From NCBI RefSeq assembly GCF_004366815.1, contig NZ_SORI01000002.1, forward strand, positions 62,001 to 126,000: 64,000 nucleotides of DNA. Direction: 5' to 3'. The notes under the pieces were generated by a model. The model was not told the DNA's origin and did not search any database. It saw only the letters and a list, made by a program, of their open reading frames with translations. Positions 15,597 to 32,753 of this stretch are shown here, in pieces (positions within the stretch are counted from its first letter, which is position 1; every line of letters begins with the position of its first letter). Both the position numbers and the translations under genes were made by a program. This DNA comes from Aminivibrio pyruvatiphilus (GTDB lineage Bacteria; Synergistota; Synergistia; Synergistales; Aminobacteriaceae).

Positions 15597-18500
15597 ATGA
15601 AGCATACTATCGGACTTGATATAGGAATTGCGTCTGTCGGATGGAGCGTTATTAACCTCGACAAAAACCGGATTGAAGACCTTGGAGTCAGGATTTTCCC
15701 CGCCCCTGAACATCCAAAGGACGGATCCTCCCTCGCAAAACAGCGCCGAGAAGCCAGCGGAACACGGAAACGCAATCAAAGAAAGACGGCACGCCTCCAG
15801 AAGATTCAAGCCCTTTTCCGGGAAGAAAAAATTCTCACTTCCCTCGAAATAGAAAACCTCCTGAATGCACATTCAGAAAAATCCCCTTACGAACTCAGGA
15901 CCGATGCCCTCTCCCGCGAATTATCAGCACCGGAATGGTTCCGTGCCCTCTACCACATAGCCAAACACAGGGGATTCCAGTCAAACAAGAAAATAAAGGC
16001 CGGATCAAAGGAAAAGGAAAAGGAAGAAGGAGCTCTCCTTGAAGGAGTGAAGACCAACGCCCTTCTTATGGCTGAGAAGGGCTACCGGACAGTAGGGGAG
16101 ATGTTTTTCCTCGACCCGAAATTTACTGACCACAAACGGAATAAAGGCGGCGATTATGCTCATACAGTCTCTCAGGAACTCCTGCGGGAAGAGGTTGAAC
16201 TCCTGTTTGCCGAACAGAAAAGGTTAGGAAATCCCCACACCTCCGAAATATTTCGAAAATCATTCATCGAGGCTTTCACAAGCCGCCTCCCTTTCGCCGC
16301 TCCCGGCCAGATAGAATCAAAAATCGGCTTCTGTACCTTCGAAAAAAACGAAAAGCGTGCTCCACGGATGAGCTGGAGTGCTGAACGCTTCATCCTTCTG
16401 GGCAAGGTAAACAATCTTCGAATCCTTGACACATTCAAGGGGGAACGCCCTCTCACTCCGGAAGAGCGGGAAAACTTGATCAATCTGGCCTATAAAAAGG
16501 CAGAAGTTAAATATAAGGACATACGAAAAGCCTTCTCGCTGGAAGAATCCTCCTACTTTTCCGGCATCCGGTACAGCAAAGAAGACGCAAGGGAAGGCAG
16601 CGAGAACGGTAAGTTTATCGCACTGAAGGGAACCCATGAACTACGGAAGGAAATAACCGAAAGGCTTGGCAAAGAAGCCTGGGAAACGTACGAATCAACA
16701 CCGGCCATTCTTGATGAAATTGCGCTTACCCTTACACTCCTAAAAACAGAGGAGGACATCCGGAGCGATCTTGAAAGCAAAAAAATACCTTCCGTCCTCA
16801 TCGATGCCGTTATCGATCTCGACTTCAAGTCCACAATCAACCTTTCCTTCAGGGCGCTGCGTAAAATACTCCCGTTCATGGAATCCGGGTTTCGATACGA
16901 TGAGGCATGTGAAAAGGCCGGGTACCCGTACGAAAATGCAGAAAGAACGAAATTGCTCCCCCCGGATGATTTTGACGACATCACCAATCCCGTAGTCAAA
17001 CGATCTCTTCATCAGACCCGGAAAGTGCTGAACGCCATTATCAGAAAATATGGTTCGCCGTGGTCCATCCACATTGAACTGGCCCGGGAAATGGGAAAGA
17101 GCTTCGATGACCGAAAGAAAATCCAGAAAATGCAGGATGAAAACAGAAACGAAAGAGAACGGCTCAAAGCAGATTTTATTTCCAACTTCCATCGCGAGCC
17201 CTCAGGTACCGACCTTCTCAAATACAGGCTCTGGAAAGAACAAAATTGCTGTGATCCTTATGTTCAGCTTCCGGTGGGACCTGGAATATTCGAACCCAAA
17301 TATATCGACCCTATCCGCCTCTTCCAGCAGGGAGACGGCACCTATGCGGAAATCGACCACATAATCCCTTACAGCAGAAGCCTCGACAATTCATACACGA
17401 ACAAAATCCTTGTGCTTGCTGAAGAAAACAGGAACAAAGGAAACAAAACCCCCGGTGAATATTTATTTTCAAGCACAAATCCCGAATGTTGGGATGCCTT
17501 TGTTGCATGGGTTCAGTCGAACATACGCAACGGCAAGAAAAGAAGGAACCTCCTCCGGGAATCCTTCACTCTTGAAGATTCCAGGGAAATGACCGAGCGG
17601 AATCTCACGGATACCCGCTACATCACCAGGTATCTCGCGAACTATCTGGAAAGCCGCCTTCAATTTTCCGATCCCTCCCCTTCAAGCAAAAAGGTGCACC
17701 GCGTCAACGGGGGAGTCACCGCGGCTCTCAGAGGACTGTGGGGCCTGCCGAAAGACAGGGAAGAGAGTCATCTTCACCACGCCCTCGACGCCGTTGTCGT
17801 GGCCGTTACGGCACCGCATCTCATAGAAAGAATGACGGAATACGACAGAATGCGTAAAGCAGCAAACTTCGGCACCGGACAAGACCGCTCATCCAGGAAT
17901 GCCCCCCAGCCATGGGCAGGGTTCCGAAAGGAACTCCTCGCCCGCATTTCGGAAAACCCGGCCGAAGAGATAGGCAAGATAGCGCTGCCTTCCTACAAAC
18001 AGGAAGAAATTGACTCACTTCGCCCGATATTCGTTTCCCACATGCCGGTGAGAAAAGCTACCGGAGCTGCCCACAAAGAAACAGTGCGAAGCCTGAAACT
18101 GGCAGACACTTTAGGCGGGACATTTGTCCGGACGCCTCTAACCAAACTCAAACTTGCGGACCTGGAAAATATGGTCGGCAAAGAACGTGACCGAAAACTT
18201 TACGATGCCCTGAAAGAGCGGCTTTCAGCTAACGACGGCAAAGGAGAAAAGGCCTTCGGGACTTCGGCACCTCTTTTCAGAAAACCTACCAGAGAAGGAA
18301 ATCCCGGCCCCATCGTCCGTTCAGTCAAAATTTTCAGCCCAGGCACTTCCGGGGTAAGAGTCCGGGGAGGCATTGCGGACAACGACAATCTGGTTCGTGT
18401 GGATATTTACTCCTATAAAAACAAATTTTCGCTCGTCCCCCATTACGTGGACGATATTGCTCGAGGAGTTCTGAGAAGAAAGGGTATCCTCGCACACAAG

Positions 18501-18800
18501 GACGAAAACAACTGGGAGCCTATTACACCTGAGCATAAGTTTCTTTTCTCTCTTTTCCCGAACGACTTGGTTGAAGTCCTCCAAAGGAACGATGACAGTG
18601 TTTTAGGCTATTATAGAACTGTAGATAGAGATAATGGACGGCTCACTCTTGCCTCACATGACGGAAAAGAAGAAGATATACGGGTTTCCATGAGAACGTG
18701 CAAATCAATTCGGAAATTCCAGGTTGGCCTCCTAGGCGACTTTCACGAAGTGAAGAAAGAAAAACTGCCTTCGGGAAAACCCGTTCATGAGCTGGCGTAG
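15597..18800 (+). CDS. cas9: Type II-C CRISPR-associated endonuclease Cas9
   Basis: 1067-aa Cas9, close in size to the Neisseria enzyme. Residues seen: RuvC-I GLDIG with D8; an arginine-rich bridge helix at ~50-75 (QRREASGTRKRNQRKTARLQ); RuvC-II SIHIELAREMG with E494; HNH EIDHIIPYSRSLDNSYTNK with H588 and its Asn residues; RuvC-III HHALDAVVVAV with H728 and D731. All catalytic residues are intact, so it should cut both DNA strands under crRNA:tracrRNA guidance. The C-terminal ~250 residues would be the PAM-interacting region. A strong GGGGGGAGG site precedes the ATG. The stop overlaps the cas1 start by 14 bp. No csn2 or cas4 is present, which supports subtype II-C. Base composition is lower in GC than the neighbouring metabolic genes, hinting at horizontal acquisition. 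Confidence 0.98.
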   Translation: MKHTIGLDIGIASVGWSVINLDKNRIEDLGVRIFPAPEHPKDGSSLAKQRREASGTRKRNQRKTARLQKIQALFREEKILTSLEIENLLNAHSEKSPYELRTDALSRELSAPEWFRALYHIAKHRGFQSNKKIKAGSKEKEKEEGALLEGVKTNALLMAEKGYRTVGEMFFLDPKFTDHKRNKGGDYAHTVSQELLREEVELLFAEQKRLGNPHTSEIFRKSFIEAFTSRLPFAAPGQIESKIGFCTFEKNEKRAPRMSWSAERFILLGKVNNLRILDTFKGERPLTPEERENLINLAYKKAEVKYKDIRKAFSLEESSYFSGIRYSKEDAREGSENGKFIALKGTHELRKEITERLGKEAWETYESTPAILDEIALTLTLLKTEEDIRSDLESKKIPSVLIDAVIDLDFKSTINLSFRALRKILPFMESGFRYDEACEKAGYPYENAERTKLLPPDDFDDITNPVVKRSLHQTRKVLNAIIRKYGSPWSIHIELAREMGKSFDDRKKIQKMQDENRNERERLKADFISNFHREPSGTDLLKYRLWKEQNCCDPYVQLPVGPGIFEPKYIDPIRLFQQGDGTYAEIDHIIPYSRSLDNSYTNKILVLAEENRNKGNKTPGEYLFSSTNPECWDAFVAWVQSNIRNGKKRRNLLRESFTLEDSREMTERNLTDTRYITRYLANYLESRLQFSDPSPSSKKVHRVNGGVTAALRGLWGLPKDREESHLHHALDAVVVAVTAPHLIERMTEYDRMRKAANFGTGQDRSSRNAPQPWAGFRKELLARISENPAEEIGKIALPSYKQEEIDSLRPIFVSHMPVRKATGAAHKETVRSLKLADTLGGTFVRTPLTKLKLADLENMVGKERDRKLYDALKERLSANDGKGEKAFGTSAPLFRKPTREGNPGPIVRSVKIFSPGTSGVRVRGGIADNDNLVRVDIYSYKNKFSLVPHYVDDIARGVLRRKGILAHKDENNWEPITPEHKFLFSLFPNDLVEVLQRNDDSVLGYYRTVDRDNGRLTLASHDGKEEDIRVSMRTCKSIRKFQVGLLGDFHEVKKEKLPSGKPVHELA

Positions 18801-19686
18801 CATTCTGATCGCTTCACCGGCAAAACTCAGCCTGGCCCAGCAGCACCTTCACATCGCTATCGGTGATGAAGAAATTGATGTGCCCTTGGAGGACATCGCT
18901 GTTATCATCATCGAAAACCTGCAGACGCTCCTGACCGGACAGATAATCAGCGAACTGGCTCAAAGAGGGATCGGTCTAATCATCTGTGACGAAAGACATC
19001 TGCCCTGCGGAGAATTACTGCCGTTTCATCAGCACAGCCGAATGAGAAAAGCGCTTTCATTTCAGTTGGAAATGACTGAACCGTTTCGAAAAAACTGCTG
19101 GCGACTGATAATCCGCCGAAAGATACTGAACCAGGCTATTTGCCTTGATCTGCTCTGGAAGCCGGACGGAGACAGCCTGCGAAGCCTCGCCTCCGGCGTC
19201 AGGAGCGGAGATCCGGACAACAGGGAAGCTCAGGCAGCCCAGATTTTTTTCTCGCGGATCATTCCCGGCATTACACGACGAACCCCTGATCCCTTTAATG
19301 ACACTTTGAATTATGGATATTCCGTCATGAGGGCCGCAGTTGCACGGGCTTTTTCTGCTCACGGATTTCTCCCTGCCCTGGGGCTCCACCACAGGAACGA
19401 ACTCAACCAATTCAACCTGGCCGACGATTTCGTTGAGGTTCTGCGTCCTCTTGTCGATCTTTGGGTAAGCAGCAACCTGGGAAGGGAGGAAATTTTTAAT
19501 TCTCTCCACAGGCAAAGCCTGGCATCGCTCCTCTCGAGCGATATTTCAATCGATGGGGAAAGAAACACGGTACTGCGCTCAACGGAGATCATGGCTGCCA
19601 GTTTTTTTACTGCTTGCAGGGAAAAAGCTCCTGCCCTGATACGCTTGCCGGAGCTCCTTCCTCTGACAGAACACCGGTATGAGTGA
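18787..19686 (+). CDS. cas1: CRISPR adaptation integrase Cas1
   Basis: 299-aa type II Cas1. The N-terminal beta domain is at ~1-80 (SILIASPAKLSLAQQHLHIAIGDEEIDVPLEDIAVIIIEN). The catalytic helical domain contains NDTLNYGYSVMRAAVARAF, then GLHHRNELNQFNLADDFVEVLRPLVD with the conserved metal-binding His and Asp of the Glu-His-Asp triad. It integrates new spacers with Cas2. It begins inside the end of cas9 and overlaps cas2 by eight bases, so the three genes are translationally coupled. Confidence 0.97.
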   Translation: MSWRSILIASPAKLSLAQQHLHIAIGDEEIDVPLEDIAVIIIENLQTLLTGQIISELAQRGIGLIICDERHLPCGELLPFHQHSRMRKALSFQLEMTEPFRKNCWRLIIRRKILNQAICLDLLWKPDGDSLRSLASGVRSGDPDNREAQAAQIFFSRIIPGITRRTPDPFNDTLNYGYSVMRAAVARAFSAHGFLPALGLHHRNELNQFNLADDFVEVLRPLVDLWVSSNLGREEIFNSLHRQSLASLLSSDISIDGERNTVLRSTEIMAASFFTACREKAPALIRLPELLPLTEHRYE

Positions 19687-20005
19687 ATGCCGCTTCATGA
19701 GGCTGCTCGTATTCTTTGATCTACCGGTAGTCAGCAAGGAAGACAGGCGGATTTACCAGAGATTCCGTAAATTCTTGCTTGCTGACGGTTACGACATGCT
19801 CCAGTTTTCAGTGTACAGCAGAATTGTCAACGGGGAAGACGGCGTTGACAAACACTTGAAAAGACTGGGGAAGAATATTCCAGGCAAGGGATCCGTCCGG
19901 TTTCTCCAGATTACTGAACGCCAGTATGCTGCAATGAAACTTCTCGTCGGCCAGAGAACAATCAAAGAAAAAAAGGTCGGAACAAGCCAGCTCCTGATCT
20001 TTTGA
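19679..20005 (+). CDS. cas2: CRISPR adaptation protein Cas2
   Basis: 108-aa ferredoxin-like Cas2 with the characteristic first strand RLLVFFDLP, carrying the conserved Asp14 (or Asp8 if translation begins at the internal ATG at 19697), then a YQRFRKFLLADGYDMLQFSVYSR strand-helix and a VRFLQITERQYAAMKLL segment. It bridges Cas1 dimers in spacer integration. It starts within the cas1 stop region and ends 63 bp before the first repeat. Confidence 0.96.
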   Translation: MSECRFMRLLVFFDLPVVSKEDRRIYQRFRKFLLADGYDMLQFSVYSRIVNGEDGVDKHLKRLGKNIPGKGSVRFLQITERQYAAMKLLVGQRTIKEKKVGTSQLLIF

Positions 20006-20019
20006 GGCAATTTTTTCGA

Positions 20020-20061
20020 CGATGAAGGGGCTTGAACTTCAGTGTTCAAGCCCCTTCATCG
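20020..20061. repeat. Perfect 18-bp inverted repeat between cas2 and the CRISPR array
   Basis: CGATGAAGGGGCTTGAAC (20020-20037) and its exact reverse complement (20044-20061) enclose a 6-base loop, TTCAGT. It ends seven bases before the first repeat. Neither side has a classical T-run: a T6 precedes it on the plus strand and A6 follows it in the minus direction. It may stop or stabilise transcripts entering from either side, or anchor spacer integration. Confidence 0.85.
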
Positions 20062-20068
20062 TTAGGAT

Positions 20069-21424
20069 ATTGTAGCATTTCGGAGTGCGGCAGGGAGCTA
20101 TAACGGCGAAAAAGGAGCCGCCTCCCGTTGGCAGATTGTAGCATTTCGGAGTGCGGCAGGGAGCTATAACAAGACAAACGACATATACGCCGGAGCAATA
20201 ATTGTAGCATTTCGGAGTGCGGCAGGGAGCTATAACGGTCGGGGTGTTCTCCGAGAACTGCAAGATATTGTAGCATTTCGGAGTGCGGCAGGGAGCTATA
20301 ACTGGCGTACTGCCGGACAAATACCCTGTTGTATTGTAGCATTTCGGAGTGCGGCAGGGAGCTATAACCGTAAATGACGCCGACCTGTTCGCGTCGTGAT
20401 TGTAGCATTTCGGAGTGCGGCAGGGAGCTATAACCGAAAGGAGTGATCCCCATGAAACGCCTCGATTGTAGCATTTCGGAGTGCGGCAGGGAGCTATAAC
20501 CAGAAATGCTCCACCATGTAGCGCTGGAATATTGTAGCATTTCGGAGTGCGGCAGGGAGCTATAACCTGCACCAGGACGGTAAAACACAATGTTTGATTG
20601 TAGCATTTCGGAGTGCGGCAGGGAGCTATAACGGTGCAGGAAAAACGGAGTTGGTGGGCACGATTGTAGCATTTCGGAGTGCGGCAGGGAGCTATAACTT
20701 GATTATCCTTGGTCTTCGACATTTAACGATTGTAGCATTTCGGAGTGCGGCAGGGAGCTATAACGTAAATGTGCGGCTGGACAACGTATCGGGGATTGTA
20801 GCATTTCGGAGTGCGGCAGGGAGCTATAACATCGCTCCGGATCTTCGCCGCGTAATCCGCATTGTAGCATTTCGGAGTGCGGCAGGGAGCTATAACCATG
20901 GAATTGCCCTCCACATATATGGAGAGATTGTAGCATTTCGGAGTGCGGCAGGGAGCTATAACTAGATTCTTGACACGCCCCCTACCCCCGGCATTGTAGC
21001 ATTTCGGAGTGCGGCAGGGAGCTATAACCTGAACTTTCCCGCCTCCGCCAAGGTTTGCATTGTAGCATTTCGGAGTGCGGCAGGGAGCTATAACACCCTA
21101 ACGTGCTTCGCCTGACCGATCCTTATTGTAGCATTTCGGAGTGCGGCAGGGAGCTATAACGGTGAACCCGGTGCGGAGATATACAGCGCAATTGTAGCAT
21201 TTCGGAGTGCGGCAGGGAGCTATAACGGACAGGAAGGCGGCACGGAGCCGGGCACTATTGTAGCATTTCGGAGTGCGGCAGGGAGCTATAACAGATAGAG
21301 GCTCTCAGGGAAGCGGCGAGAGATTGTAGCATTTCGGAGTGCGGCAGGGAGCTATAACAAGCTCAGCTTCGACGAGTCGAACCGCACGATTGTAGCATTT
21401 CGGAGTGCGGCAGGGATCTATAAC
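20069..21424 (-). CRISPR. CRISPR array, type II-C, 21 repeats and 20 spacers
   Basis: A 36-bp repeat recurs with an exact 66-bp period, giving 21 repeats and 20 unique 30-bp spacers. Read on the minus strand, the repeat begins GTTATAGCTCCC and ends TGCTACAAT, the same plan as Neisseria and Campylobacter II-C repeats. This is the orientation complementary to the tracrRNA. TGCTACAAT is an extended -10 promoter box, so each crRNA can have its own start about six bases into the spacer. All inspected repeats are identical except the last on the right (21389-21424), which has G to T at 21417; such a degenerate repeat usually marks the oldest end. Spacer 9 (20633-20662) reads in frame as GAGKTELVGT, a Walker A motif. 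Spacer 6 (20435-20464) contains AAAGGAG and an ATG, like a gene start. Confidence 0.98.
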
Positions 21425-21451
21425 CGATAGTACCATCGCCCCTTCAATGAA

Positions 21452-21589: not shown

Positions 21590-22417
21590 CTACTGTAGCT
21601 TGGAGACGATGACCCTGTTGGTGATGCCCTTTTCCTTTTCCTCCTTGGTGGCCCTGATGATGCCGTAGAGTACGCCGGTTTCGCTTCTGTCCCATGCGAT
21701 GCCCTGGCCACGGATGTTTTTCGGCAGTATTTCCACCAGCTCGATGACGGAACCCATTTTGGGAAGCCTGCATTTGTAGACTTCCGCAGGGTCGTGGCCC
21801 GACAGGTAGAGGAATCCGTCGGCTCCCCAGGAGCCTCCCGAATTGCTCATATCCTCCAGCCGTTCGAGTATTGCCTTGGGGAGGGTCCACGCTTCGAGCC
21901 ACTGCCAGTTGTCGGCGAACTTGACTATGGTGGTGCATATCTTGTGCCCGTAGGGCGTTTTGTTGGGGCCGTAGGGCCTGTCGTAGTTGGCGAAGGCCAC
22001 CCACCAGTATCCGTCGTGCCGGTCCACCCAGGTGGCGGATCCCCAGTGTATGCCGAAGCTGTGGTTGGCCACGTGCTCCAGGGTTGCGGCGTCCCACACC
22101 TCGATGGAGCTGGTCATGGGCCATTCGCTCCAGTTGGAATGGGCGCAGTAGATTTTTCCGTCGATGACGGCGGCGCTGTCGAGGTGAATGATGGGCCCGT
22201 CCTTGGGTCCTTCCCATTTCTTGACGAGCTTTCCGGTGGCCTTGTCGTACTTGGCGACGACCCGGTTGTCTATGGCATAGAAGTGGTGTTCATCCACTCC
22301 GATCCCCTGGTTCGCTTCCGGGACGTTGAACTCCGCGGTCTGCTTGAATTCGGCCGCTCCCGCCAGCGAAGCGAACAGCAATACAAGCCCCAAAGAAAGC
22401 AATACTGTCTTTTTCAT
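21590..22417 (-). CDS. Secreted beta-propeller-like protein of unknown function
   Basis: 275 aa from the ATG at 22417, which has a GAGGAAG-like site before it. A signal peptide (MKKTVLLSLGLVLLFASLAGAAEF) directs export. The rest is rich in short strands with tryptophan and repeating motifs such as YAIDNRVVAKYDKATGKLVKKWEG and SSIEVWDAATLEHVANHSFG, suggesting a propeller fold of the YVTN/quinoprotein type. It follows the M29-type gene by about 100 bases on the same strand and may be the last member of that operon. It may bind or process an extracellular ligand for the system; no catalytic residues can be assigned. Confidence 0.72.
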   Translation of the reverse strand: MKKTVLLSLGLVLLFASLAGAAEFKQTAEFNVPEANQGIGVDEHHFYAIDNRVVAKYDKATGKLVKKWEGPKDGPIIHLDSAAVIDGKIYCAHSNWSEWPMTSSIEVWDAATLEHVANHSFGIHWGSATWVDRHDGYWWVAFANYDRPYGPNKTPYGHKICTTIVKFADNWQWLEAWTLPKAILERLEDMSNSGGSWGADGFLYLSGHDPAEVYKCRLPKMGSVIELVEILPKNIRGQGIAWDRSETGVLYGIIRATKEEKEKGITNRVIVSKLQ

Positions 22418-22515
22418 TTTTTCTTCCTCCCCGAACCGCTCATGGTTTTTTCGGACATGGTTTCCCCTGACCGTGCCGTCAGTCAATAGGGTGAAGCTCC
22501 GGACAGGCGCCGGGG

Positions 22516-23463
22516 TTACCCCGCGTGGACCTTGCCTTCCTCCACCACGGTCTTTCCGTCAAGGAGCAGCCTGGGCCTGGTGATGATGCCGTCCACGTGG
22601 ACGCCTGCCGCCACGGTGCCGCCGAAGGTGTCGTTGCTGCCGAGGGCGATGTGGACGGTGCCGTAGATTTTTTCGTCCTCCAGGATGACTCCGGTGACCC
22701 GGGCTTTGTCGTTGGTTCCTATGCCGAGCTCCGCCAGGTTCCGGGCCCCGGGGTTGTTTCCCAGCATTGTTTCCAGCCGTTCGGCGTCCGGCCCTTCCGC
22801 CCTGACGAGGAGGCCCTTCCGGAAGACAAGGTGCAGGGGTGCGCTGAGGACGCCGATGCCGGCGAAGGACCCGTCCACCAGGACTTCCCCTTCCGCCGTT
22901 CCCTCCACGGGGGCGATGTAGGATTCCCCCGTGGGAAGGTTCCCCGACTCTCCCCTGTTCCGGTAGATGCCGGTGCTCGGCACGCCGCTTCGGCCTTCGA
23001 GGGACATGCGGAGGACGTAACCTCCGGAGTGGAGTTCGGCGGCTCTGGCCTCCGAGAGCAGGGCCGTGACCCTGCCGGTGAGTTCGGCCACCTTGCCGTA
23101 ATCCGCGGTGATGGGGCCGTGAAAGAACATGTCCTCGGTGATTTTGGGCATGGTGGCCACCCTGGCACCGGCGGCGCAGGCCCTTTTCTTCGCCTGGGTG
23201 TGGGTCAGGGACGTTCCGGTGGCGGCGATGACCACATCGGCATGCTCCATGGCGGCGGCTGCCGGGGCGAAGGGTTCTTCGCCGTTTTTGGACAAAAGGG
23301 GCATCCTGAGGGCGAGGGCTTTGGCGCCCAGGGTTCCGGCTGCCTCGAACAGGCTCTCGCCGATGCGAAGAGTGGTGTGGTCGTACAGGACCAGGAAGGT
23401 TTCACCGGGCTTCAGCCCCATGTTGTCCTCAAGAATGCGGCGGGCGACTTCCACAAAATCCAT
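22516..23463 (-). CDS. M29-family aminopeptidase-like protein (AmpS/NicX-related)
   Basis: 315 aa from the ATG at 23463, which has GAGGAGG just upstream; an in-frame extension to 23487 is less likely. The C-terminal half carries the family pattern ELGIGTNDKARVTGVILEDEKIYGTVHIALGSNDTFGG followed by HVDGII, which includes the Glu, His and Asp metal ligands seen in M29 peptidases and in the related 2,5-dihydroxypyridine dioxygenase NicX. It is shorter than typical M29 peptidases (~400 aa). In this operon it could hydrolyse a small peptide or amide released after import. Peptidase or ring-opening activity cannot be told apart from sequence. Confidence 0.75.
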   Translation of the reverse strand: MDFVEVARRILEDNMGLKPGETFLVLYDHTTLRIGESLFEAAGTLGAKALALRMPLLSKNGEEPFAPAAAAMEHADVVIAATGTSLTHTQAKKRACAAGARVATMPKITEDMFFHGPITADYGKVAELTGRVTALLSEARAAELHSGGYVLRMSLEGRSGVPSTGIYRNRGESGNLPTGESYIAPVEGTAEGEVLVDGSFAGIGVLSAPLHLVFRKGLLVRAEGPDAERLETMLGNNPGARNLAELGIGTNDKARVTGVILEDEKIYGTVHIALGSNDTFGGTVAAGVHVDGIITRPRLLLDGKTVVEEGKVHAG

Positions 23464-23499
23464 TATTCCGCCTCCTCTCCCCTTCAAACAGGGGTGTCT

Positions 23500-24174
23500 T
23501 TAGCCTATGAGCTCTTTTACCATGCTCGCGGCGACGCCCCTGGCGAGGAGGGCGGGCCTGTCCGTTATCTCCCGGACCAGGGAGCGGATGGCCAGGGTGT
23601 ACCCTATGCAGTCCAGGACGGTGATTTCCGCCTTCCATTCCTTGAGTTCCTCCGCCGCTGCCCGGGCGGCCTCCATGGCGTTGACGTAGGGCGATGACGG
23701 CACCGCCCGTACGAAGGGGCTCAGGCTGCCCCACCGGTGTTCCGACTGCTCCACCTGCTCGGGGGAAGGGGTGAGGATGCCGATCCGCATTCCCTTGGCC
23801 ACGGCCGCCACGGCGTTGAAGAGCACTTTCTGGGGGCGGATGAGGAGGCCGCCGGTTTCAAAATCGGGGAATTCCCCGGTGCACAGGAGCAGGACGACGG
23901 GAATGCCGCCGGTGAAGTGCTCCGCAATTTTTTCGTGGATCCTCGGCGTGATGTGCCGCTCGGCCACCTGGACGGATGAGCCGTCAGCGAGTCTCGTCAC
24001 GAGGACGTAGTCTCCTTCCCGGGGAGCGAAGGAGGCGATTATTTCAGGGGAAAGACCGTCCAGGGCGCCCGCTTCCCGTATTTCGATGTCCGGGCCCAGG
24101 ATGGAGGCCACGTCGGGAATGACGTCAGTTCTCGGAGACTGTCCTATGGTCACCGTTCCAATCACTTTTTTCAT
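23500..24174 (-). CDS. AroM-family protein
   Basis: 224-aa protein with the AroM-family opening MKKVIGTVTIGQSPRTDVIPD and the segments GALDGLS, YVLVTRLADGSSVQVAERHI, LLLCTGEFPDF (a Cys in a racemase-like position), RIGILTPSPEQ and VLDCIGYT. The fold resembles Asp/Glu racemases, with two conserved Cys (LLLCTGEF and VLDCIGY). AroM in E. coli has no established function; the name comes from its position near aroL. The gene starts inside the preceding gene (50-bp overlap) with a GGGAGGG site, so it is co-translated with it. Role in the OPT operon unknown. Confidence 0.88.
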   Translation of the reverse strand: MKKVIGTVTIGQSPRTDVIPDVASILGPDIEIREAGALDGLSPEIIASFAPREGDYVLVTRLADGSSVQVAERHITPRIHEKIAEHFTGGIPVVLLLCTGEFPDFETGGLLIRPQKVLFNAVAAVAKGMRIGILTPSPEQVEQSEHRWGSLSPFVRAVPSSPYVNAMEAARAAAEELKEWKAEITVLDCIGYTLAIRSLVREITDRPALLARGVAASMVKELIG

Positions 24175-25018
24175 CGGAATCCCTCCCGAATTGAGTGTTC
24201 CGCCCGTAGACGCACCCGAGGTGCCACGGACGGCCCGGGCCGCACCGGAGGCATTCTTCCATGGATGACGGTATTCCGCTGGTTACGGCCCCCTTTATGT
24301 TCCGCAGCAGCCCGAGGAGGGCCCGGATGGTTTCCTCCGAGCCGTCCTCGACTAAAAAGGTGGAAGCACCCTCGGCCCCGGAAATTCCCCCTCTCCCCAC
24401 GAGCCACCTTCTGGGCCAGCCGAGCAGGGCGAGGGCGTCCAGTTCCGTCACCACCCTGCCGGGGACGGGCACGAGGCCGACTGCCATGCCCATGGCCCAT
24501 ACGGAGGCTTTCCGCCCCGCGTTCCCGCAGGCTTCCCTCAGGGGGACGGGAGAGAGCTTTTCAAGCCCTGCGGCCACATAACACCGCACGCCCTCGGATT
24601 CGAGGGCAGGTATGACGCTGCCGGGTTCTCCGCAGAGGTCCTTCCCGGCCATCATGGCGGCGCCTCCCCAGGGATCGATGAGGTTGGCGCCGCAGACGCA
24701 CACATCGTCAGGGCCCATTTCCCGGGCGATCTCCGCCAGCCTTCCGTCCGCCTTTTCGGCCATACCCCTTCTGAGCAGAAGGGAATGGGCGCCCTCCGGC
24801 TCCGCCGCCCCGGAGGAAACCGTTCCCCTGGGAGTCACCCTGCCGGAAATCCTCAGGGGCTGCCCGCAGAGTTCTTCGGACAGGGCGGAGACCGTGGTAC
24901 CCCCCTTCAGGAGGATCATCCCGTCCGACAGGGCCTTCCGGACCTCGGGCAGGGACGCTATGGCTTTGGCTATGAGCCGCTTCCCCTCGGATACGGTGAG
25001 GGTGAACTGGCACTTCAT
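24125..25018 (-). CDS. Conserved-looking protein of unknown function in the OPT/DUF1177/AroM operon
   Basis: 297 aa from the ATG at 25018, which lies five bases after the DUF1177 stop. I do not recognise the family. It begins KCQFTLTVSEGKRLIAKAIA, has a glycine-rich segment ILLKGGTTVSALSEELCG, then DVCVCGANLIDPWGGAAMMAGKDLCGEPGS (GxN and GGA motifs suggestive of a small-molecule or nucleotide pocket) and a C-terminal Cys cluster SSMEECLRCGPGRPWHLGC. There is no signal peptide or membrane segment. Its 3' end overlaps aroM-like by 50 bp, unusually long. Tight packing implies that it works with DUF917, DUF1177 and AroM. Confidence 0.7.
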   Translation of the reverse strand: MKCQFTLTVSEGKRLIAKAIASLPEVRKALSDGMILLKGGTTVSALSEELCGQPLRISGRVTPRGTVSSGAAEPEGAHSLLLRRGMAEKADGRLAEIAREMGPDDVCVCGANLIDPWGGAAMMAGKDLCGEPGSVIPALESEGVRCYVAAGLEKLSPVPLREACGNAGRKASVWAMGMAVGLVPVPGRVVTELDALALLGWPRRWLVGRGGISGAEGASTFLVEDGSEETIRALLGLLRNIKGAVTSGIPSSMEECLRCGPGRPWHLGCVYGRNTQFGRDSDEKSDWNGDHRTVSEN

Positions 25019-25023
25019 GACGG

Positions 25024-25971
25024 TCAGCCGGTGGTTCTGCCCATGGTCTGGAGATGGACCATGGACCCGTACAGGTCCACCATGCGCCTGAACTCCTCCT
25101 CGCTGCAGAAGCTCAGCTTTCCTTCGCCGAACTCCTTGGCGGCCTCGATGACGAACCGCACCGCCGCCTCGATATCCACCACCTGGGACGATCCCGTGGC
25201 GCACCCCGGTACGGCCGTTTCCGCCGTCAGGGCGATCCCCACCACCGGCGCCTTCGTGGCGGTGCAGGGCTGCAGTATGCTGTTCAGGTGGTAGAGGCCG
25301 TTGCCGTAGGGCGTTATGTCCTGGGTGGTGATGGGGAACACCACGGGGGCCCGGCCGGTGACGCTTGCCATCAGGGAGAGAAGGTCTTCGCTCACCCTGA
25401 GGATATACCCCTCCCTCACCGTGGGGGAGAGGGCGAACCCCCTGCAGTTGATCACCCGGTTTCCCCTGGTGGTGTCGATGGAAAGCACGGCGTCGAGTTC
25501 ATCGCTCATTTCCTCGCCGTTGGCGATGGCCATGTTGATGGGCGAGTCCATGAAGGGGACCGGGTCGTGGGGCCGGGTGGGGGCGTTGGGGCAGATGTGG
25601 GTGGAGATGAACACGTCTCCGGCCAGGACGTCCCCCAGGCTCGCCATCCGGCCGAGCTTCATGGCCGCCGCCACCGCCGCGACGGCGCCGTCCCCGTCAG
25701 AGACGAGGCCTATCCGCTCCGGCCGGGCGCCGATTCCTCCCAGGCGACCCACGATGCCGAGGGTGGGAGCTTTTCCCCCTCCCCGTTTTCCGCTCTTTCC
25801 GGAGAACCAGACCTTGATGAAGTCCGTGTGGCCTTTCGGTCCCTCCACTTTTTTCACGGTGATGCTGCCGGCGCTGACGCCTGCGGCAATCAGGGCCTCC
25901 CGCACCGACTCCCCCGACGCCGACGGGCTGTCGAGGAGTTCGTAGGCTTCAATGGCATATTTCAGGGACAT
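25024..25971 (-). CDS. DUF1177-family protein
   Basis: 315-aa protein recognised as DUF1177 by its overall layout: SLKYAIEAYELLDSPSASGESV, FIKVWFSGKSG, GIVGRLGGIGARPERIGLVSDGDGAVAAVAAAMKLG, VFISTHICPNAPTRPHDPVPFMDSPI and LSIDTTRGNRVINCRGFALSPTVREGYILRV. Conserved His, Asp and Cys suggest a metal-dependent enzyme, and the fold is hydrolase-like by appearance. No function is established. It sits between DUF917 and the unknown 297-aa gene with gaps of 5-14 bases. Confidence 0.88.
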   Translation of the reverse strand: MSLKYAIEAYELLDSPSASGESVREALIAAGVSAGSITVKKVEGPKGHTDFIKVWFSGKSGKRGGGKAPTLGIVGRLGGIGARPERIGLVSDGDGAVAAVAAAMKLGRMASLGDVLAGDVFISTHICPNAPTRPHDPVPFMDSPINMAIANGEEMSDELDAVLSIDTTRGNRVINCRGFALSPTVREGYILRVSEDLLSLMASVTGRAPVVFPITTQDITPYGNGLYHLNSILQPCTATKAPVVGIALTAETAVPGCATGSSQVVDIEAAVRFVIEAAKEFGEGKLSFCSEEEFRRMVDLYGSMVHLQTMGRTTG

Positions 25972-25985
25972 GGGATCTTCCCCTC

Positions 25986-27059
25986 CTATCTGATGTATTC
26001 CACTATTTTCTTACCCACCACGGGCTCGATTTCCTCCATGAGTTCCATGCACCGCATGCCCTCACCCAGGATGAGCCGGTCGGCGGGGACGACGAAAAGA
26101 ATGACGGTCTGCCCTTCCTTTACTTCCGCCGTGGTGACGGGAAGCCCGGACCCGGCGTCGAGGGTCATGATGAGGTCGGGAAAGGTGGCAAGCCGTTCGC
26201 CCCTGCTCTCCAGCGTCATGTATTCGTTCCAGAAGGTGGTTTCGAAGTCCCCCACGATGACGGAGCCGCTGTCGAACCCGCCCCTGGTGACGATCTCCTT
26301 CCGGGCCACCGCCCCGGTGACCATGTGCTCACCGCCGAGGAAATTCAGGATGGAGGCGAGGACGACATCCCCGCCCCGGGGCATGGCCTTTCTCATCCGC
26401 TCCCCCAGGTCCATGGCCTGCCGGAGGGCGCCGCAGGCGCCGTGCGCCCTCGCGTAGGACGCCGCCACCGGGTTCCGGGCCACGGCGACGAGGCCGCCGG
26501 ATTTGTCCGCCGCCGCCCGGATCATGGAGGACGCGCTGCCGAGCTTCCCCGCCACGTGCAGTTCCAGGTAGAGCCCCTTCTCCCGGTCTCCGCCGGCGGC
26601 GGACTGGCGGGAGACGTACCCGGGGTCCCTGTGGAGCCCCATGGAACCCATGACTCCCGTGGGATGGGCCCTGCCGTTGCAGAGGGCGTCCACCACCGGC
26701 AGGCCCATGAGGGCAGCGGGAACCCATCCGTTGGTGATGGAGCTTCCGCCGCACTCGTTGGGTATGAACCCTCCCGGCGCCGGGCAGCCGTTTTCTTTCA
26801 GTATTTCCACGACCCGGACATAGTCCTTCGGCTCCACCCGCGCTTCCGCCGCAGCGGGGGCCCCGACGGCCGATCCGGTGATGAGCACCGTGTCCGGAGG
26901 GATGTCGTCGATATCGGCCAGGACCACCTCTCCGGCCTCCAGGGCGCCCCTGAGGTTGAGGCGCCCCTTCTCCATGCTGCCCCCTCCGCCGCCTCCCAGG
27001 ACTGCTCCGCCCAGTATGGCGGCTTCTCCCGTTTCTTTCGTTATGGGTCTTTTCGCCAC
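25986..27059 (-). CDS. DUF917 family protein (S-methyl-thiohydantoin desulfurase-like)
   Basis: 357 aa from a GTG start at 27059 with AGGAGGAG upstream. The N-terminus AAILGGAVLGGGGGGSMEKGRL and the block ITGSAVGAPAAAEARVEPKDY with GGFIPNECGGSSITNGWVPAALMGLPVVDALCNGRAHPTGVMGSMGL are typical of DUF917, the domain also known from thiohydantoin/hydantoinase-linked proteins. It lies directly after the hydantoin-racemase-like gene, a pairing that supports metabolism of cyclised amino acid derivatives. The exact reaction in this organism is unknown. Confidence 0.86.
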   Translation of the reverse strand: MAKRPITKETGEAAILGGAVLGGGGGGSMEKGRLNLRGALEAGEVVLADIDDIPPDTVLITGSAVGAPAAAEARVEPKDYVRVVEILKENGCPAPGGFIPNECGGSSITNGWVPAALMGLPVVDALCNGRAHPTGVMGSMGLHRDPGYVSRQSAAGGDREKGLYLELHVAGKLGSASSMIRAAADKSGGLVAVARNPVAASYARAHGACGALRQAMDLGERMRKAMPRGGDVVLASILNFLGGEHMVTGAVARKEIVTRGGFDSGSVIVGDFETTFWNEYMTLESRGERLATFPDLIMTLDAGSGLPVTTAEVKEGQTVILFVVPADRLILGEGMRCMELMEEIEPVVGKKIVEYIR

Positions 27060-27076
27060 CGGCTCTCTCCTCCTCT

Positions 27077-27724
27077 TCAGCCCAGGACGGTCCACGCCGC
27101 AGCGGCCTGGGCCCTCACGGGATCGATGACGGGCATGCCGGTTTTTTCCCTGAGGATCCCGGCCGCCCCGATGGTGGACATGCCGGTGCAGGCAAGAACG
27201 AGCATCCTCGCTCCCCTTCCGGCAAGTAACCGGCCTGCGGCGACCAAAGCCTGCATGCCTTCGGGCTTCATAAGGTCCAGCGTGGACTCCACCCCTTCGG
27301 GCACCGCATCCGCCGCGAGGTTTTTTCCCAGAATGCGGCTCATGGCCTCCGGCACAATCTTCGTAATGCCAAGAACGCCCACCGGCAGGCCGGTGATCAG
27401 GGCGGCCGATGCGGCCGCCCTTCCTGCGCCGATGACGGGAATCCGGAGGGACCGGGAGGCCTCCTCCACCGCCGGGTCGCCTGCACAGCTCACGATGACC
27501 GCATCCATCCCTTCCCGCTCCATTTCCTTCGCGAGGGCGAGCACCTTGGGGACGGCGATCCGCTCCGTCTCCCCGTCGTGAATTCCTTCGGGCTGGTCGG
27601 GGATGCAGCGGGAAACCACGTCGAAGCAGGGGAAATACTGCATAACGAGCTCGCCGTGAAGGTTCAGGAGCTTTTCATCCGGCGTGGTCAGCACGCGGAT
27701 GAGGCCGATCCGTTGTTTTGTCAT
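27077..27724 (-). CDS. Asp/Glu/hydantoin racemase family protein
   Basis: 215-aa racemase-fold protein with both catalytic cysteines: C80 in AVIVSCAGDPAVEEA and C179 in LVLACTGMSTI. The start GLIRVLTTPDEKLLNLHGE and the middle VIGAGRAAASAALITGLPVGVLGITK match the hydantoin racemase branch. Such enzymes epimerise 5-substituted hydantoins or related compounds by a two-base mechanism. Its ATG overlaps the stop of the OPT transporter gene (TAATG), indicating translational coupling, so the likely substrate is what that transporter imports. Confidence 0.88.
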   Translation of the reverse strand: MTKQRIGLIRVLTTPDEKLLNLHGELVMQYFPCFDVVSRCIPDQPEGIHDGETERIAVPKVLALAKEMEREGMDAVIVSCAGDPAVEEASRSLRIPVIGAGRAAASAALITGLPVGVLGITKIVPEAMSRILGKNLAADAVPEGVESTLDLMKPEGMQALVAAGRLLAGRGARMLVLACTGMSTIGAAGILREKTGMPVIDPVRAQAAAAWTVLG

Positions 27725-29385
27725 TACAGGAAGCTCCTTATGAGGGCGTTCACGAACCCGTAAATGCCGTCGCCCGCCACGAGGCCGCCGCCGTAGATCT
27801 CAAGCTCCGGCTTGAAGTTCTTTTCAAGGGGAAGCCTGATGAGAAGGGCCACCAGGAGACCGACGCCGTAAATGGGGTTGCGGATGAGCAGCCCCGTGGC
27901 GAAGAGGATCCCCAGGGCTTTTTTCGCCCCACCCGCGAACTGCAGTGCCGCGCCGAAGACGCTGGCGATGACGAGCTGCCTGAGAATTTCCGGGTTCAGC
28001 CCCGCCTTGACCGTGGCGGCGAAGACCTTGCTGACCGGGGGTACCATGTCGAGCTTGAAGTGCATGTTCATCAGGAGGGCCGTCACGCCCACGGCGATGA
28101 AGGCGCCGATCAGCTCGGAGATGACCTGCTGCCGCCGTCCGTCCATTTCGTATGCGGGGTCGCTTCCCCTGCCCCGGACGATCCAGCCGGTCTTGAGGTC
28201 ATAGCCCATATCGGCGAAACAGGGGCCCGTGCTGGCCACATACCCGGTGAGAAGGATCAGGGCGTGGGGAGGGAACCCCATGAACACGCCGAGGCTCAGG
28301 AAGATGATCGTCACGGCGAATCCGGGGAACCATCCGGAGTGCATGGCGGAAAGGCCCACGAGGATGGGCGCGACGATGGCCGAGAAGGTGCACCACAGTA
28401 CCCAGATCACGAGCTTCTCCATGGGCATTTCGGTCCAGATTCCGCTCATGACCGCCAGCACCACCGCGCCGAGGGCGAAGAGGACGATGTGGGCGGACAG
28501 GGTCTTTTTCACCGTTTCGGGCGAAACGGTGTACTGTTCGGCGGCCTCTTCCCCCGCAGGAGCGGACGGCTTCCTGTGCCGGAAAATAATCACCATGGCC
28601 TGGACCAGGGAGATGGCTCCGGCGCCGATCATGACGCCGTGGGGAATGTAGGTCTTGCCGAGGTCGGTGACGTTTTCAAAGCCGATGCCCGCAAGAATGG
28701 GTCCGGCCCAGGGAGCGATATGGTGAAAATATCCCCGGACCAGGAGGCCGATGGCCAGGGCCAGCATGGCGTAGACGTTGGCTATGAAGGCTATGCCGAC
28801 ACCCGCCATGGGAAGGCCCGCTATGCCCAGCGCCGGGAAGGTGAAGAGCTTGCTGCTGCCGAGGGCGCCGAGGAAGACGCCGAGAAGAAGGTGCTTCCCC
28901 TTTCTGCCGCCTTCATCCCCCGCGATGAGGGCCTGGGCGGTGGCGATGCCCGGAGGCCAGGTGCCCGTGGCGGGAAAGAGTTCCGAGTCGAAGAGGCGGT
29001 ACACGAGGTGCATGCCGATGAGCGTGGCAAGGCCCGACCCGAGGAGCATGGGTATGACGAGGCTCAGGTCGCCGTAGGCGTAAAAGATGGCCACGGCGAG
29101 GAGGGTGCAGTTCGCAGCCGCGAAGCCTGCTCCGGACGTCATGGTCTGGACAAGGTTCTGGCGGTCCAGGGACCGGAACTTGTGCATGGCCTGGAAAGGC
29201 ATCCTGGCAAGAGACATGGCGATAAGGGCTCCGATGATGGAGGTATTCGGCGTGATCCCTATTCTGGAGATTATCTGCATGCAGATGACCGCCGAGAGCG
29301 CAGAAACCAGAAGGCTCAAGATGAGCGTTTCCTTTTCAAGGGCCTTCACATGCTGCCTTTTTTCCGTGCTTTCCATTTCTTTCAT
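27724..29385 (-). CDS. OPT-family oligopeptide transporter
   Basis: 553-aa membrane protein with roughly 13-15 hydrophobic segments. OPT features include LVSALSAVICMQIISRIGITPNTSIIGALIAMSL, RQNLVQTMTSGAGFAAANC, FPATGTWPPGIATAQALIAG, FENVTDLGKTYIPHGVMIGAGA and the C-terminal YGGGLVAGDGIYGFVNALI. OPT proteins are proton-coupled importers of small peptides or peptide-derived metal chelates. The start at 29385 has GAGGAGAGGGG directly upstream. It is the first gene of an eight-gene operon, so the pathway begins with uptake of a peptide-like compound. Confidence 0.92.
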   Translation of the reverse strand: MKEMESTEKRQHVKALEKETLILSLLVSALSAVICMQIISRIGITPNTSIIGALIAMSLARMPFQAMHKFRSLDRQNLVQTMTSGAGFAAANCTLLAVAIFYAYGDLSLVIPMLLGSGLATLIGMHLVYRLFDSELFPATGTWPPGIATAQALIAGDEGGRKGKHLLLGVFLGALGSSKLFTFPALGIAGLPMAGVGIAFIANVYAMLALAIGLLVRGYFHHIAPWAGPILAGIGFENVTDLGKTYIPHGVMIGAGAISLVQAMVIIFRHRKPSAPAGEEAAEQYTVSPETVKKTLSAHIVLFALGAVVLAVMSGIWTEMPMEKLVIWVLWCTFSAIVAPILVGLSAMHSGWFPGFAVTIIFLSLGVFMGFPPHALILLTGYVASTGPCFADMGYDLKTGWIVRGRGSDPAYEMDGRRQQVISELIGAFIAVGVTALLMNMHFKLDMVPPVSKVFAATVKAGLNPEILRQLVIASVFGAALQFAGGAKKALGILFATGLLIRNPIYGVGLLVALLIRLPLEKNFKPELEIYGGGLVAGDGIYGFVNALIRSFL

Positions 29386-30238: not shown

Positions 30239-30710
30239 GAGAGGAAGGGCAGGGGGATTTTCTTCTTTTTTCTTCTGGAATATTGCTGAAGGAAAAGAGG
30301 CTTCTTCTTCAACATTCATGGTAAAATTGTTACATTCAATTGTTACATACAATTGCACCATACATTATATCTTCGGCACCTTGACAACCGGGTCCTTGAT
30401 TGCACGAAACTGCAGGCCCCCTGTTGTATACCCGTACGGCTCACCGCCGAAGGGCAGGGGGTCTTTCTGAACACACAGTTTTTTTCAGATGTCTTTGCTC
30501 CTCCGGAGTACCAGAAAACATCACCTGCAGGTCAAGCAAACAGCACCGGTTCTTCCCCAAGAAACACAATCACAACCGAATACCGCACCTCCAGCCCCCT
30601 GTACCTCCGCTTCACAGGACAAAAACCCTCAAGGTCTGCTGCCGGACCTTTCTTTCCGACCTCACCCGTTTTTATCAGAAAGCAGAATACTCACGAAAGG
30701 GTGTCATTGT
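30239..30710. other. Long leader/intergenic region before the serA-like gene
   Basis: About 470 bases. It contains two tandem 13-bp units (AATTGTTACATTC, AATTGTTACATAC) plus a partial third at 30325-30355, followed by TTATAT at 30365-30370, suggesting a regulated promoter. An open frame continues upstream of the serA-like start to 30489, but its predicted residues resemble no protein and its codon use differs from the gene. A structured leader is possible, but no known riboswitch or T-box motif was identified. Confidence 0.5.
30325..30355. repeat. Tandem 13-bp repeat, possible operator
   Basis: AATTGTTACATTC / AATTGTTACATAC / AATTG at 30325-30337, 30338-30350 and 30351-30355. CAATTG halves flank the second unit, so the sites also have dyad character. 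It lies just upstream of a -10-like TTATAT. Confidence 0.55.
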
Positions 30711-31601
30711 ATGCTGATTTTGATTTCCGATGCTTTTGATCCCAGCCTGCCTGAAAGACTTTCGGTCTTCGGAGAAGTGACGGAAGACAGGAATCGCCTT
30801 GCGGAAGCGGATGCCGTTCTGGTCCGGAGCAAGACGAAGTGCACCAGGGAGTATATCGACGGCGCTCCGAACCTGAAGCTGATCATCCGGGGAGGGGTGG
30901 GCACCGACAACATCGATACAGCCTATGCCCTCGGGAAGGGCATTGTCGTTAAAAACACGCCGAAGGCTTCCGCCATTTCCGTGGCCGAGGTCGCCTTCGC
31001 CCTGATGATTTCGGTCCCGAACCAGCTGGTCACGGCGCACGTCGCCATGACCGAGGGTCGGTGGCTGAAGAACGAGATAAGGAGAACCGAGCTGTTCGGA
31101 AAAACCCTGTGCCTGGTGGGCATGGGCAACATCGCCCGGGAGATGGCCCTCAGGGCCAGGGCCTTCGGGATGAAAACCATCGCCTGCAGAAAATCGGGGC
31201 TTCCGAGCGATTTCGCGGAAGTGCGGGGCTCCCTGAAGGAGGCCTTTTCCGAGGCGGACTACATTTCCCTCCACGTTCCCCTGACGGACGAAACACGGAA
31301 CATGATCAACCGGGAAAGCATCTCCTGGATGAAGGACGGCGTTGCAATAATCAATACGGCGAGGGGAAAGTGCGTGGTCGAGGAAGACCTGGCGGCTGCC
31401 CTGGAGAGCGGCAAGGTAGGGGCCTATGCCTCTGATGTCTGGTTCTCCGATCCCCCTTCCCCGGACTGCCCCCTGCTGAAGGCGCCCAACGTGACCATGA
31501 CCCCCCACATAGGGGCGAACAGCGAGGAGAACCTGCTTCGAATCAGCGATGAAGTCTGTGAACTGATACATCATTTCGTCAAAGGAGACCTGAAAGGATG
31601 A
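30711..31601 (+). CDS. serA: D-3-phosphoglycerate dehydrogenase-like hydroxyacid dehydrogenase
   Basis: 296 aa from the ATG at 30711 (GAAAGGGTG upstream); a longer frame to 30489 is rejected because the extra residues look non-coding. It has the NAD-binding motif LCLVGMGNIAREMALRARAFG, the AEVAFALMISV helix, IINTARGKCVVEEDLAAAL and a terminal TPHIGANSEEN carrying the catalytic His. It lacks an ACT domain, like short archaeal/bacterial SerA versions. Its stop overlaps the serC start (ATGA), so the pair probably performs the first two steps of the phosphorylated serine pathway from 3-phosphoglycerate. A catabolic role with the downstream TAXI-TRAP transporter is the alternative. Confidence 0.85.
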   Translation: MLILISDAFDPSLPERLSVFGEVTEDRNRLAEADAVLVRSKTKCTREYIDGAPNLKLIIRGGVGTDNIDTAYALGKGIVVKNTPKASAISVAEVAFALMISVPNQLVTAHVAMTEGRWLKNEIRRTELFGKTLCLVGMGNIAREMALRARAFGMKTIACRKSGLPSDFAEVRGSLKEAFSEADYISLHVPLTDETRNMINRESISWMKDGVAIINTARGKCVVEEDLAAALESGKVGAYASDVWFSDPPSPDCPLLKAPNVTMTPHIGANSEENLLRISDEVCELIHHFVKGDLKG

Positions 31602-32677
31602 GAAAATTTAATTTTTCGGCCGGCCCGGCGGTTCTGCCCCTGCCGGTGCTGGAGGAAGTAAGGGATACGCTGGTTGACTACAGGGGGAACGGCTTGTCCC
31701 TCCTCGAGTGCAGCCACAGAAGCAAAATGTACGAAGACGTGCACAACGAGACGATTTCCCTGTTTCAGGAACTGCTCGGCCTGCCCGAGAGCCACAAGGT
31801 CATTTTCCTGGGGGGCGGCGCAACGCTCCAGTTCTCCATGGTCCCCATGAACTTCCTGACGCCCGGGAAGGCCTGCGACATGGTGGTCAGCGGCGCGTGG
31901 GCGAAAAAGGCCCTTTCCGACGCCAAAAAGATCGGCGACGTGAAGGTGGTCTTCGACGGCGCCGAAACGAAGTACACCACCCTTCCGAAATCCGATACCA
32001 TCTACAACCCGGACGCGGCCTACGTCCACATCACGTCGAACGAGACCATCGGGGGCCTGCAGTGGAAGACCTTCCCCGACACGGGCGACGTTCCCCTGAT
32101 AGCGGACATGTCGAGCGACATCATGAGCACCCCCCTTCCCGTGGAGAAATTCAGCATGATCTACGCGGGCGCGCAGAAGAACCTGGGCCCTTCGGGAGTC
32201 GCCGTGGCAGTCATCCACGAGAAGCTCCTCGAACGGTGCCCCAAGTCGCTGACCGCCTATCTGAACTACGGCATCCACTCCGAGAAGAATTCGCTCTACA
32301 ACACTCCCCCCGTGTTCTCCATCTACATCATGATGCTTGTCCTGAGATGGGTGAAGGCCCAGGGCGGGGTGGCGAAGATGAGCGAGCTTTCGTCCCAAAA
32401 GGCGGGGGCCATTTACCGGGAGATTGATTCCAGCGGGGGCTTCTATTCCTGCCCCGTGGAGAAGGAGAGCCGTTCCGTGATGAACGTCATTTTCCGCCTG
32501 CCCTCCGAGGAACTGGACAAGAAATTCCTGAAGGAGGCGGAGGCACTGGATATGATCGGGCTGAAGGGGTACCGTGATGTGGGAGGATGCAGGGCATCCC
32601 TCTACAACGCCATGCCCCTGGAAGGAGCCCTGACCCTGGCCGGCTTCATGAAGGACTTCGCGGCGGCCAACGGGTAA
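31598..32677 (+). CDS. serC: Phosphoserine aminotransferase
   Basis: 359-aa class V PLP-dependent aminotransferase of normal SerC length. It starts RKFNFSAGPAVLPLPVLEE, the SerC signature, and has LLECSHRSKMYEDVHNE, FLGGGATLQFSMVPMN and the PLP lysine K194 in YAGAQKNLGPSG. The C-terminal part EAEALDMIGLKGYRDVGGCRASLYNAMPLEG is diagnostic. It transaminates 3-phosphohydroxypyruvate with glutamate. It overlaps the serA-like gene by four bases. Confidence 0.96.
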   Translation: MRKFNFSAGPAVLPLPVLEEVRDTLVDYRGNGLSLLECSHRSKMYEDVHNETISLFQELLGLPESHKVIFLGGGATLQFSMVPMNFLTPGKACDMVVSGAWAKKALSDAKKIGDVKVVFDGAETKYTTLPKSDTIYNPDAAYVHITSNETIGGLQWKTFPDTGDVPLIADMSSDIMSTPLPVEKFSMIYAGAQKNLGPSGVAVAVIHEKLLERCPKSLTAYLNYGIHSEKNSLYNTPPVFSIYIMMLVLRWVKAQGGVAKMSELSSQKAGAIYREIDSSGGFYSCPVEKESRSVMNVIFRLPSEELDKKFLKEAEALDMIGLKGYRDVGGCRASLYNAMPLEGALTLAGFMKDFAAANG

Positions 32678-32753
32678 TACAAGGCGTTTACGGCGTTCCT
32701 CAAGCCGGTTTAAAGAGCGGCGCACAAATAAATCACGAAAAGGAGATGGAAAA

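Follow-up and report, generated by a model that had tools for sequence, protein, structure and literature searches.

What is the substrate of an operon in which a peptide-type importer is encoded together with two racemase-fold enzymes, an aminopeptidase-like protein and members of the families DUF917 and DUF1177? The question is raised by a locus of Aminivibrio pyruvatiphilus (Synergistota), located in a 64,000-nucleotide stretch of contig NZ_SORI01000002.1 (positions 62,001 to 126,000), which is referred to as the window and to which all plain coordinates below apply. The conserved unit consists of seven minus-strand genes, encoding an OPT-family importer, a PF01177 racemase, a DUF917 protein, a DUF1177 protein, an unnamed protein of 297 amino acids, AroM and an M29-like protein (Table 1). 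DUF1177 and AroM are the core of this cluster, which is conserved and apparently mobile, and the breakdown of small peptide-derived compounds is our tentative reading of it. An earlier interpretation of the letters of the window (the sequence-only reading) had placed these seven products here in a same-strand run with overlaps or short gaps; all of them were found at that position (profile matches), and the spacing does not exceed 36 bp. From OPT to M29 the junctions are an overlap of 1 bp, gaps of 17, 14 and 5 bp, an overlap of 50 bp and a gap of 36 bp.

Conservation and gene context

DUF1177 is present in 27 and AroM in 26 of 188 Synergistota genomes, and 23 genomes have both (Fisher p = 2e-22, n=188, a value that overstates independence because the genomes are related). 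AroM occurs as a single copy in A. pyruvatiphilus. The order OPT-racemase-DUF917-DUF1177-(297)-AroM-M29 is kept in several genera and families of the phylum (20 larger loci).

A pattern scan over one genome per species (84,980 species) led to the best 80 of 540 confirmed DUF1177 relatives; these loci are the closest by sequence and not a random sample. They belong to the Synergistota, Bacillota, Chloroflexota, Pseudomonadota, Actinomycetota, Acidobacteriota, Acetothermia, Aminicenantes, Rokuibacteriota and the archaea (Thermococcus, Thermoplasmata and Desulfurococcales), and plasmid records add loci from Haloferacaceae, Sodalis, Klebsiella, Niallia, Paenibacillus and Planococcus. The same or a permuted gene order was observed in Synergistota, Bacillota, Chloroflexota, Pseudomonadota, Actinomycetota and Archaea, and since it recurs in such distant phyla it is far beyond chance.

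Neighbours were counted on the same strand within 7 kb of DUF1177, in the 46 loci from outside the Synergistota whose flanks reach 4.5 kb or more on both sides. Families were set by iterative profile, and each open reading frame (ORF) was assigned to its best-scoring family because the racemase profile also reaches AroM. The most frequent neighbour was AroM (38 loci), followed by OPT (28), the M29-like protein (23), the PF01177 racemase and DUF917 (21 each), PucR (16) and IclR (14) regulators, Dpp permeases (8), PepE (5) and the 297-amino acid protein (4), whereas a gene occurring about once per genome is expected by chance within this distance in well under 1% of loci. Co-occurrence across genomes, which the sequence-only reading had named as a check on its operon, is thus strong. 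The same reading had considered two racemase-fold proteins in one operon unusual, but in this cluster they are common: 38 of the 73 loci with DUF1177 and AroM contain two such genes.

Exchange of importers, peptidases and regulators

Around the core, functional modules replace one another. Among 59 well-flanked loci the importer is OPT alone in 38, a Dpp ABC system alone in seven, both in three and an NCS1 permease in three, with none seen in eight; DUF917 is present in 33. The dipeptide-cleaving partner varies as well, being M29-like in loci such as the present one, PepE (PF03575) in enterics, Actinopolymorpha and an acidobacterium, and M20 or M28 elsewhere. The enteric version reads OPT-DUF1177-AroM-PepE-racemase and lacks DUF917. 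In some Bacillota HyuA (hydantoinase/oxoprolinase) is paired with DUF917, and in some lineages an aspartoacylase-type gene and ArgE/DapE deacylases join the cluster. The PucR or IclR neighbours suggest substrate-induced catabolism.

Protein families of the operon

The AlphaFold2 model of DUF1177 (predicted local distance difference test, pLDDT, 87.6; predicted template-modelling score, pTM, 0.91) matches the catalytic domains of M17, M28 and M20/DapE peptidases in Foldseek (E 7e-8 to 6e-7, probability 1.00, template-modelling (TM) score about 0.5), and a zinc-exopeptidase fold is likely. This assignment comes from structure prediction only, because hhalign against shallow M20 and M28 alignments gave no match (probability <1%); a sequence search of the PDB found no significant relative either. 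Seven residues (D92, D94, H125, C127, D166, D218 and H228) are invariant in 92 of 92 sequences, which argues for an active site. When sequence order and predicted secondary structure are mapped by hand, D92 and D166 fall where the bridging and terminal Asp ligands would lie; in the same mapping, made with no coordinates, R76, T124-H125 and G256-C257 lie approximately where the first His, the Glu-Glu pair and the last His are expected. The predicted fold is like that of the M17, M28 and M20 (DapE) zinc exopeptidases, with no detectable sequence similarity, but R76, H125 and C257 appear changed, and the ligand pattern apparently differs from the His-Asp-Glu-Asp-His co-catalytic set. The protein may have another kind of metal site or may have lost the metal. 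In two loci (L028 and L048) a divergent DUF1177 protein of about 40% identity, without H125, C127 and D166, is encoded outside the cluster and has perhaps another function.

The PF01177 racemase scores 90.5 bits against a cut-off of 31 and is a full-length relative of PDB entry 2eq5 (5.5e-65), itself annotated only as 'hypothetical hydantoin racemase'; C80 and C179 are invariant in all 41 sequences. AroM, sequenced in 1986, exceeds the cut-offs of both PF07302 (242.2 bits) and NCBIfam NF007788 (210.3 bits) and has no significant relative in the PDB sequence search, while its C98 and C189 are conserved in 75 of 75 sequences. By alignment, both Cys pairs are as expected for two-base racemases.

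The DUF917 protein has numerous polar residues that do not vary, among them E102, D124, R130, H132, D263 and E279, and the PDB sequence search returned no significant relative of it. Its kinship to thiohydantoin desulfurases, proposed in the sequence-only reading, holds in so far as it is a full-length homologue of the thiohydantoin and S-methyl-thiohydantoin desulfurases (ergothioneine-type breakdown), but with 279.6 and 248.4 bits it stays under both curated NCBIfam equivalog cut-offs (440 and 450).

For the M29-like protein, PF02073 gives 42.3 bits over a cut-off of 27 with partial coverage of the profile. E180, E245 and H271 align with the site of aminopeptidase T and, together with H289 and D291, are invariant in 40 of 40 sequences. 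The protein is likely a hydrolase; this is not proved, since the dioxygenase 7cn3 scores equal to aminopeptidase T.

The 297-amino acid protein had no match in Pfam or NCBIfam and no significant relative in the PDB sequence search. Its AlphaFold2 model (pLDDT 78) has weak top Foldseek matches to eIF2B and ribose-1,5-bisphosphate isomerase (E 0.003-0.04, TM about 0.2-0.3), and ribose-5-phosphate isomerase A is a weak match of a Thermococcus paralog (E 0.0098); the predicted fold is probably of the ISOCOT type. Structure prediction, which had been suggested for this protein and DUF1177 alike, thus yields a weakly ISOCOT-like model here and a zinc-exopeptidase fold there. The operon members of the family carry a C-terminal Cys/His motif (C256, H266, C269), and among four paralogs a Cys-rich C-terminal stretch is present in the Thermococcus one only. 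Because most clusters lack the protein, it is dispensable. In two deep Synergistota genomes a paralog heads an apparent threonine operon (L146:4563-5291; L148:4068-4796), directly followed by genes that were named by eye as threonine-synthase-like, homoserine-kinase-like and aspartokinase-like.

Relation to known systems

The surroundings of cyclodipeptide oxidases, which make modified cyclic dipeptides, are enriched in PF01177, DUF917, AroM, importers of the OPT or peptide ABC type, and peptidases (Andreas & Giessen 2024, PMC11055893). In that study hydantoin chemistry was suggested, Blautia, Clostridium and Thermococcus were named, and AroM and DUF917 were noted as not experimentally characterised. 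The families are those found here, and two Blautia loci (L078 and L109, and only these) carry oxidase subunit B (PF19585) directly after the racemase. DUF1177, the commonest AroM partner in our loci, and the 297-amino acid protein are not mentioned there. The literature search found no relevant paper on DUF1177 and none describing this operon. The sequence-only reading had called the pathway a candidate undescribed one, which is right in part: the association of PF01177, DUF917, AroM, OPT and peptidases had been reported, though without DUF1177. What is new is the DUF1177-AroM core, mostly without the oxidase, the informative exchange of importers and peptidases, and the likely exopeptidase fold of DUF1177. 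A cyclodipeptide-oxidase gene cluster was rejected for this genome, which gave no PF19585 match.

The canonical hydantoin utilisation operon (hydantoinase, racemase, N-carbamoylase) has the PF01177 racemase in common with the present one, which encodes OPT, AroM, DUF1177 and M29 instead of a hydantoinase or carbamoylase. Five PF01177 genes are found in the A. pyruvatiphilus genome, one in the operon and four elsewhere, two of the latter beside allantoinase/hydantoinase-type genes; one hydantoinase-type locus adds a TRAP importer, an IclR regulator and a carbamoylase-family amidase. The separate hydantoinase-type operons are L143 (G000:C6:25000-43000) and L144 (G000:C1:140000-158000). L144 also contains the second DUF917 gene of the genome and genes resembling those for threonine ammonia-lyase and succinate-CoA ligase alpha. 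Cyclic dipeptide hydrolases have been suggested to be among the enzymes of the HyuA class (PMC6061476), whose ATP-dependent ring-openers occur in variants of the cluster.

Substrate and proposed pathway

We read the operon as one that may catabolise small peptide-derived compounds, cyclised or with D-residues, that resist ordinary peptidases, and we give this tentative reading slightly less than an even chance. A small-peptide substrate is indicated by the OPT or Dpp importers and by the partners M29, PepE, M20 and M28, and D- or cyclised residues by the racemase pairs. The predicted exopeptidase fold of DUF1177, the HyuA ring-openers of some variants and the retention of the cluster in bacteria and archaea alike also speak for this reading. 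Diketopiperazines (cyclic dipeptides) are the favoured single substrate class, in view of the oxidase beside two Blautia clusters and the association reported in PMC11055893, although as a specific assignment they remain doubtful. The sequence-only reading had likewise proposed a cyclised or D-configured peptide derivative, which fits the importers, the dipeptidase-type partners and the invariant two-Cys racemases; plain hydantoin, which it had included, is a less likely substrate, given that hydantoinase operons of their own are found elsewhere in the genome.

Next to the gene content, conservation, partner exchange and Cys pairs as observed, we infer the substrate and all reactions of the pathway as follows. 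OPT would import the compound, and the two-Cys enzymes, the PF01177 racemase and AroM, would bring its alpha carbons into the L configuration by epimerisation. Hydrolysis of the ring or of a blocked amide would fall to DUF917 and/or DUF1177, with its predicted zinc-exopeptidase fold, after which the M29-like protein (PepE, M20 or M28 in other lineages) would cut the dipeptide so formed into amino acids, and these are fermented by Synergistota.

Breakdown of 5-substituted hydantoins or ureides would assign these proteins differently: the racemase and AroM would epimerise the ring carbon, DUF917 would open or modify the ring and a hydrolase would remove the carbamoyl group. PMC11055893 favours this reading, proteins related to DUF917 bear the name (S-methyl-)thiohydantoin desulfurase, the closest annotation of the racemase is 'hydantoin racemase', and variants of the cluster contain an NCS1 permease, a carbon-nitrogen hydrolase and HyuA. 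We nevertheless consider it unlikely, as the operon is without hydantoinase or carbamoylase, the main importers are OPT and Dpp, and the allantoinase/hydantoinase-type operons elsewhere in the genome have PF01177 racemases of their own, one of them along with genes for a TRAP importer and for an amidase of the carbamoylase family.

Linear peptides that carry D- or isoaspartyl residues or are blocked in some other way, and that the racemase-fold enzymes and DUF1177 would unblock for PepE or M29, seem an improbable substrate too. PepE enzymes are known Asp-X dipeptidases, the enteric cluster consists of just its five genes, and the aspartoacylase-type gene and deacylases of some lineages would suit such peptides. 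Against this, DUF917, present in more than half of the well-flanked loci, and HyuA are related to ring-acting enzymes, and the cyclodipeptide-oxidase links indicate rings.

The two Blautia loci, where oxidases that make modified cyclic dipeptides (PMC11055893) adjoin the cluster, bring to mind a role in the synthesis or tailoring of a secondary metabolite derived from a peptide. Such a role is very improbable, given that the examined neighbourhoods showed no recognisable cyclodipeptide synthase or other enzyme of assembly, that importers and peptidases predominate, and that an occurrence in amino-acid fermenters, enterics and archaea is in keeping with catabolism. YSL metal-chelate transporters belong to the OPT family, and a Sodalis member is labelled 'OPT/YSL' by PGAP, but import of a metal chelate with recycling of an amino-acid-derived chelator is the least probable of all, since Dpp peptide importers stand in for OPT and the regulators are of the PucR or IclR types.

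Several points weigh against catabolism of cyclised or D-configured peptide compounds as we propose it. We know of no reaction for DUF1177, AroM or DUF917 of this operon, and the ordinary metal ligands of DUF1177 may be lost. DUF917 is missing from all eight PepE-type loci (8/8), so that ring opening dependent on it is not universal. The NCS1 permease together with a carbon-nitrogen hydrolase in some variants indicates hydantoins or ureides, the PF19585 oxidase subunit was found neither in this genome nor in 26 of the 31 genomes tested, and the evidence that regulators and importers give for the substrate is indirect.

Operon boundaries and flanking genes

Gene starts were chosen by ribosome-binding site; the ATG of the OPT gene at 29385 is preceded by AGGAGAGGGG.

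Table 1. Genes of the operon and the adjacent propeller-like gene, listed from the first gene onwards
Product	Position	Strand	Length (amino acids)	Profile match	Remark
OPT-family importer	27724..29385	-	553	PF03169, 3.9e-24	First gene
Asp/Glu/hydantoin-racemase-family protein	27077..27724	-	215	PF01177, 1.7e-25	
DUF917 / S-Me-THD-like protein	25986..27059	-	357	PF06032 and PF20906 (S-Me-THD_N/C)	From GTG 27059; alternative start at 27095
DUF1177 protein	25024..25971	-	315	PF06675, 1e-129	
Unnamed protein	24125..25018	-	297	No Pfam or NCBIfam match	
AroM	23500..24174	-	224	PF07302, 5.8e-72	Second racemase-fold enzyme
M29-like protein	22516..23463	-	315	PF02073, 5.9e-11	Last gene of the conserved unit
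Exported propeller-like protein	21590..22417	-			98 bp past the M29-like gene

The sequence-only reading had counted eight genes by including the exported propeller-like gene. Outside the window this gene was seen only in a single congener, in whose genome it is set apart from M29 by about 4.5 kb with other genes, one of them for a DctP TRAP receptor; on these grounds it is excluded from the conserved unit. It may still share the operon transcript in this strain, because one terminator-like site of the operon strand lies just past it (21557-21543) and the site scan found none between M29 and the propeller-like gene. Terminator-like sites number 14 against 8.2 +/- 3.4 expected, with only four on the operon strand, and promoter-like sites show no excess (1 observed versus 1.4 in shuffles).

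The window also contains, at 15597-21427, a type II CRISPR-Cas system with Cas9 (1067 amino acids), Cas1 and a 108-amino acid ORF at the Cas2 position; its array of about 20 repeats at 66-bp spacing ends close to the 3' side of the operon. Upstream of the operon, on the opposite strand (30489-33728), a phosphoglycerate-dehydrogenase-like gene and an adjoining SerC gene (serine synthesis) are followed by a TAXI-type TRAP receptor gene.

Implications

An operon that joins orphan families to an importer of peptides, a pair of racemase-fold enzymes and dipeptidases that replace one another leaves a short list of substrates. The furthest-reaching proposal, which we think quite unlikely to hold as a whole, is a general and so far unrecognised pathway of bacteria and archaea for cyclic dipeptides, in which DUF1177 would be a new kind of amidase that opens the ring, built on a zinc-exopeptidase fold whose metal site has changed, and AroM would epimerise diketopiperazines (or dipeptides). 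If it is true, the uncharacterised AroM would gain a function. At least three orphan families become open to direct tests of their functions, also in tractable hosts such as Pantoea, Paenibacillus and Haloferax volcanii, the last of which carries the DUF1177, DUF917 and AroM families.

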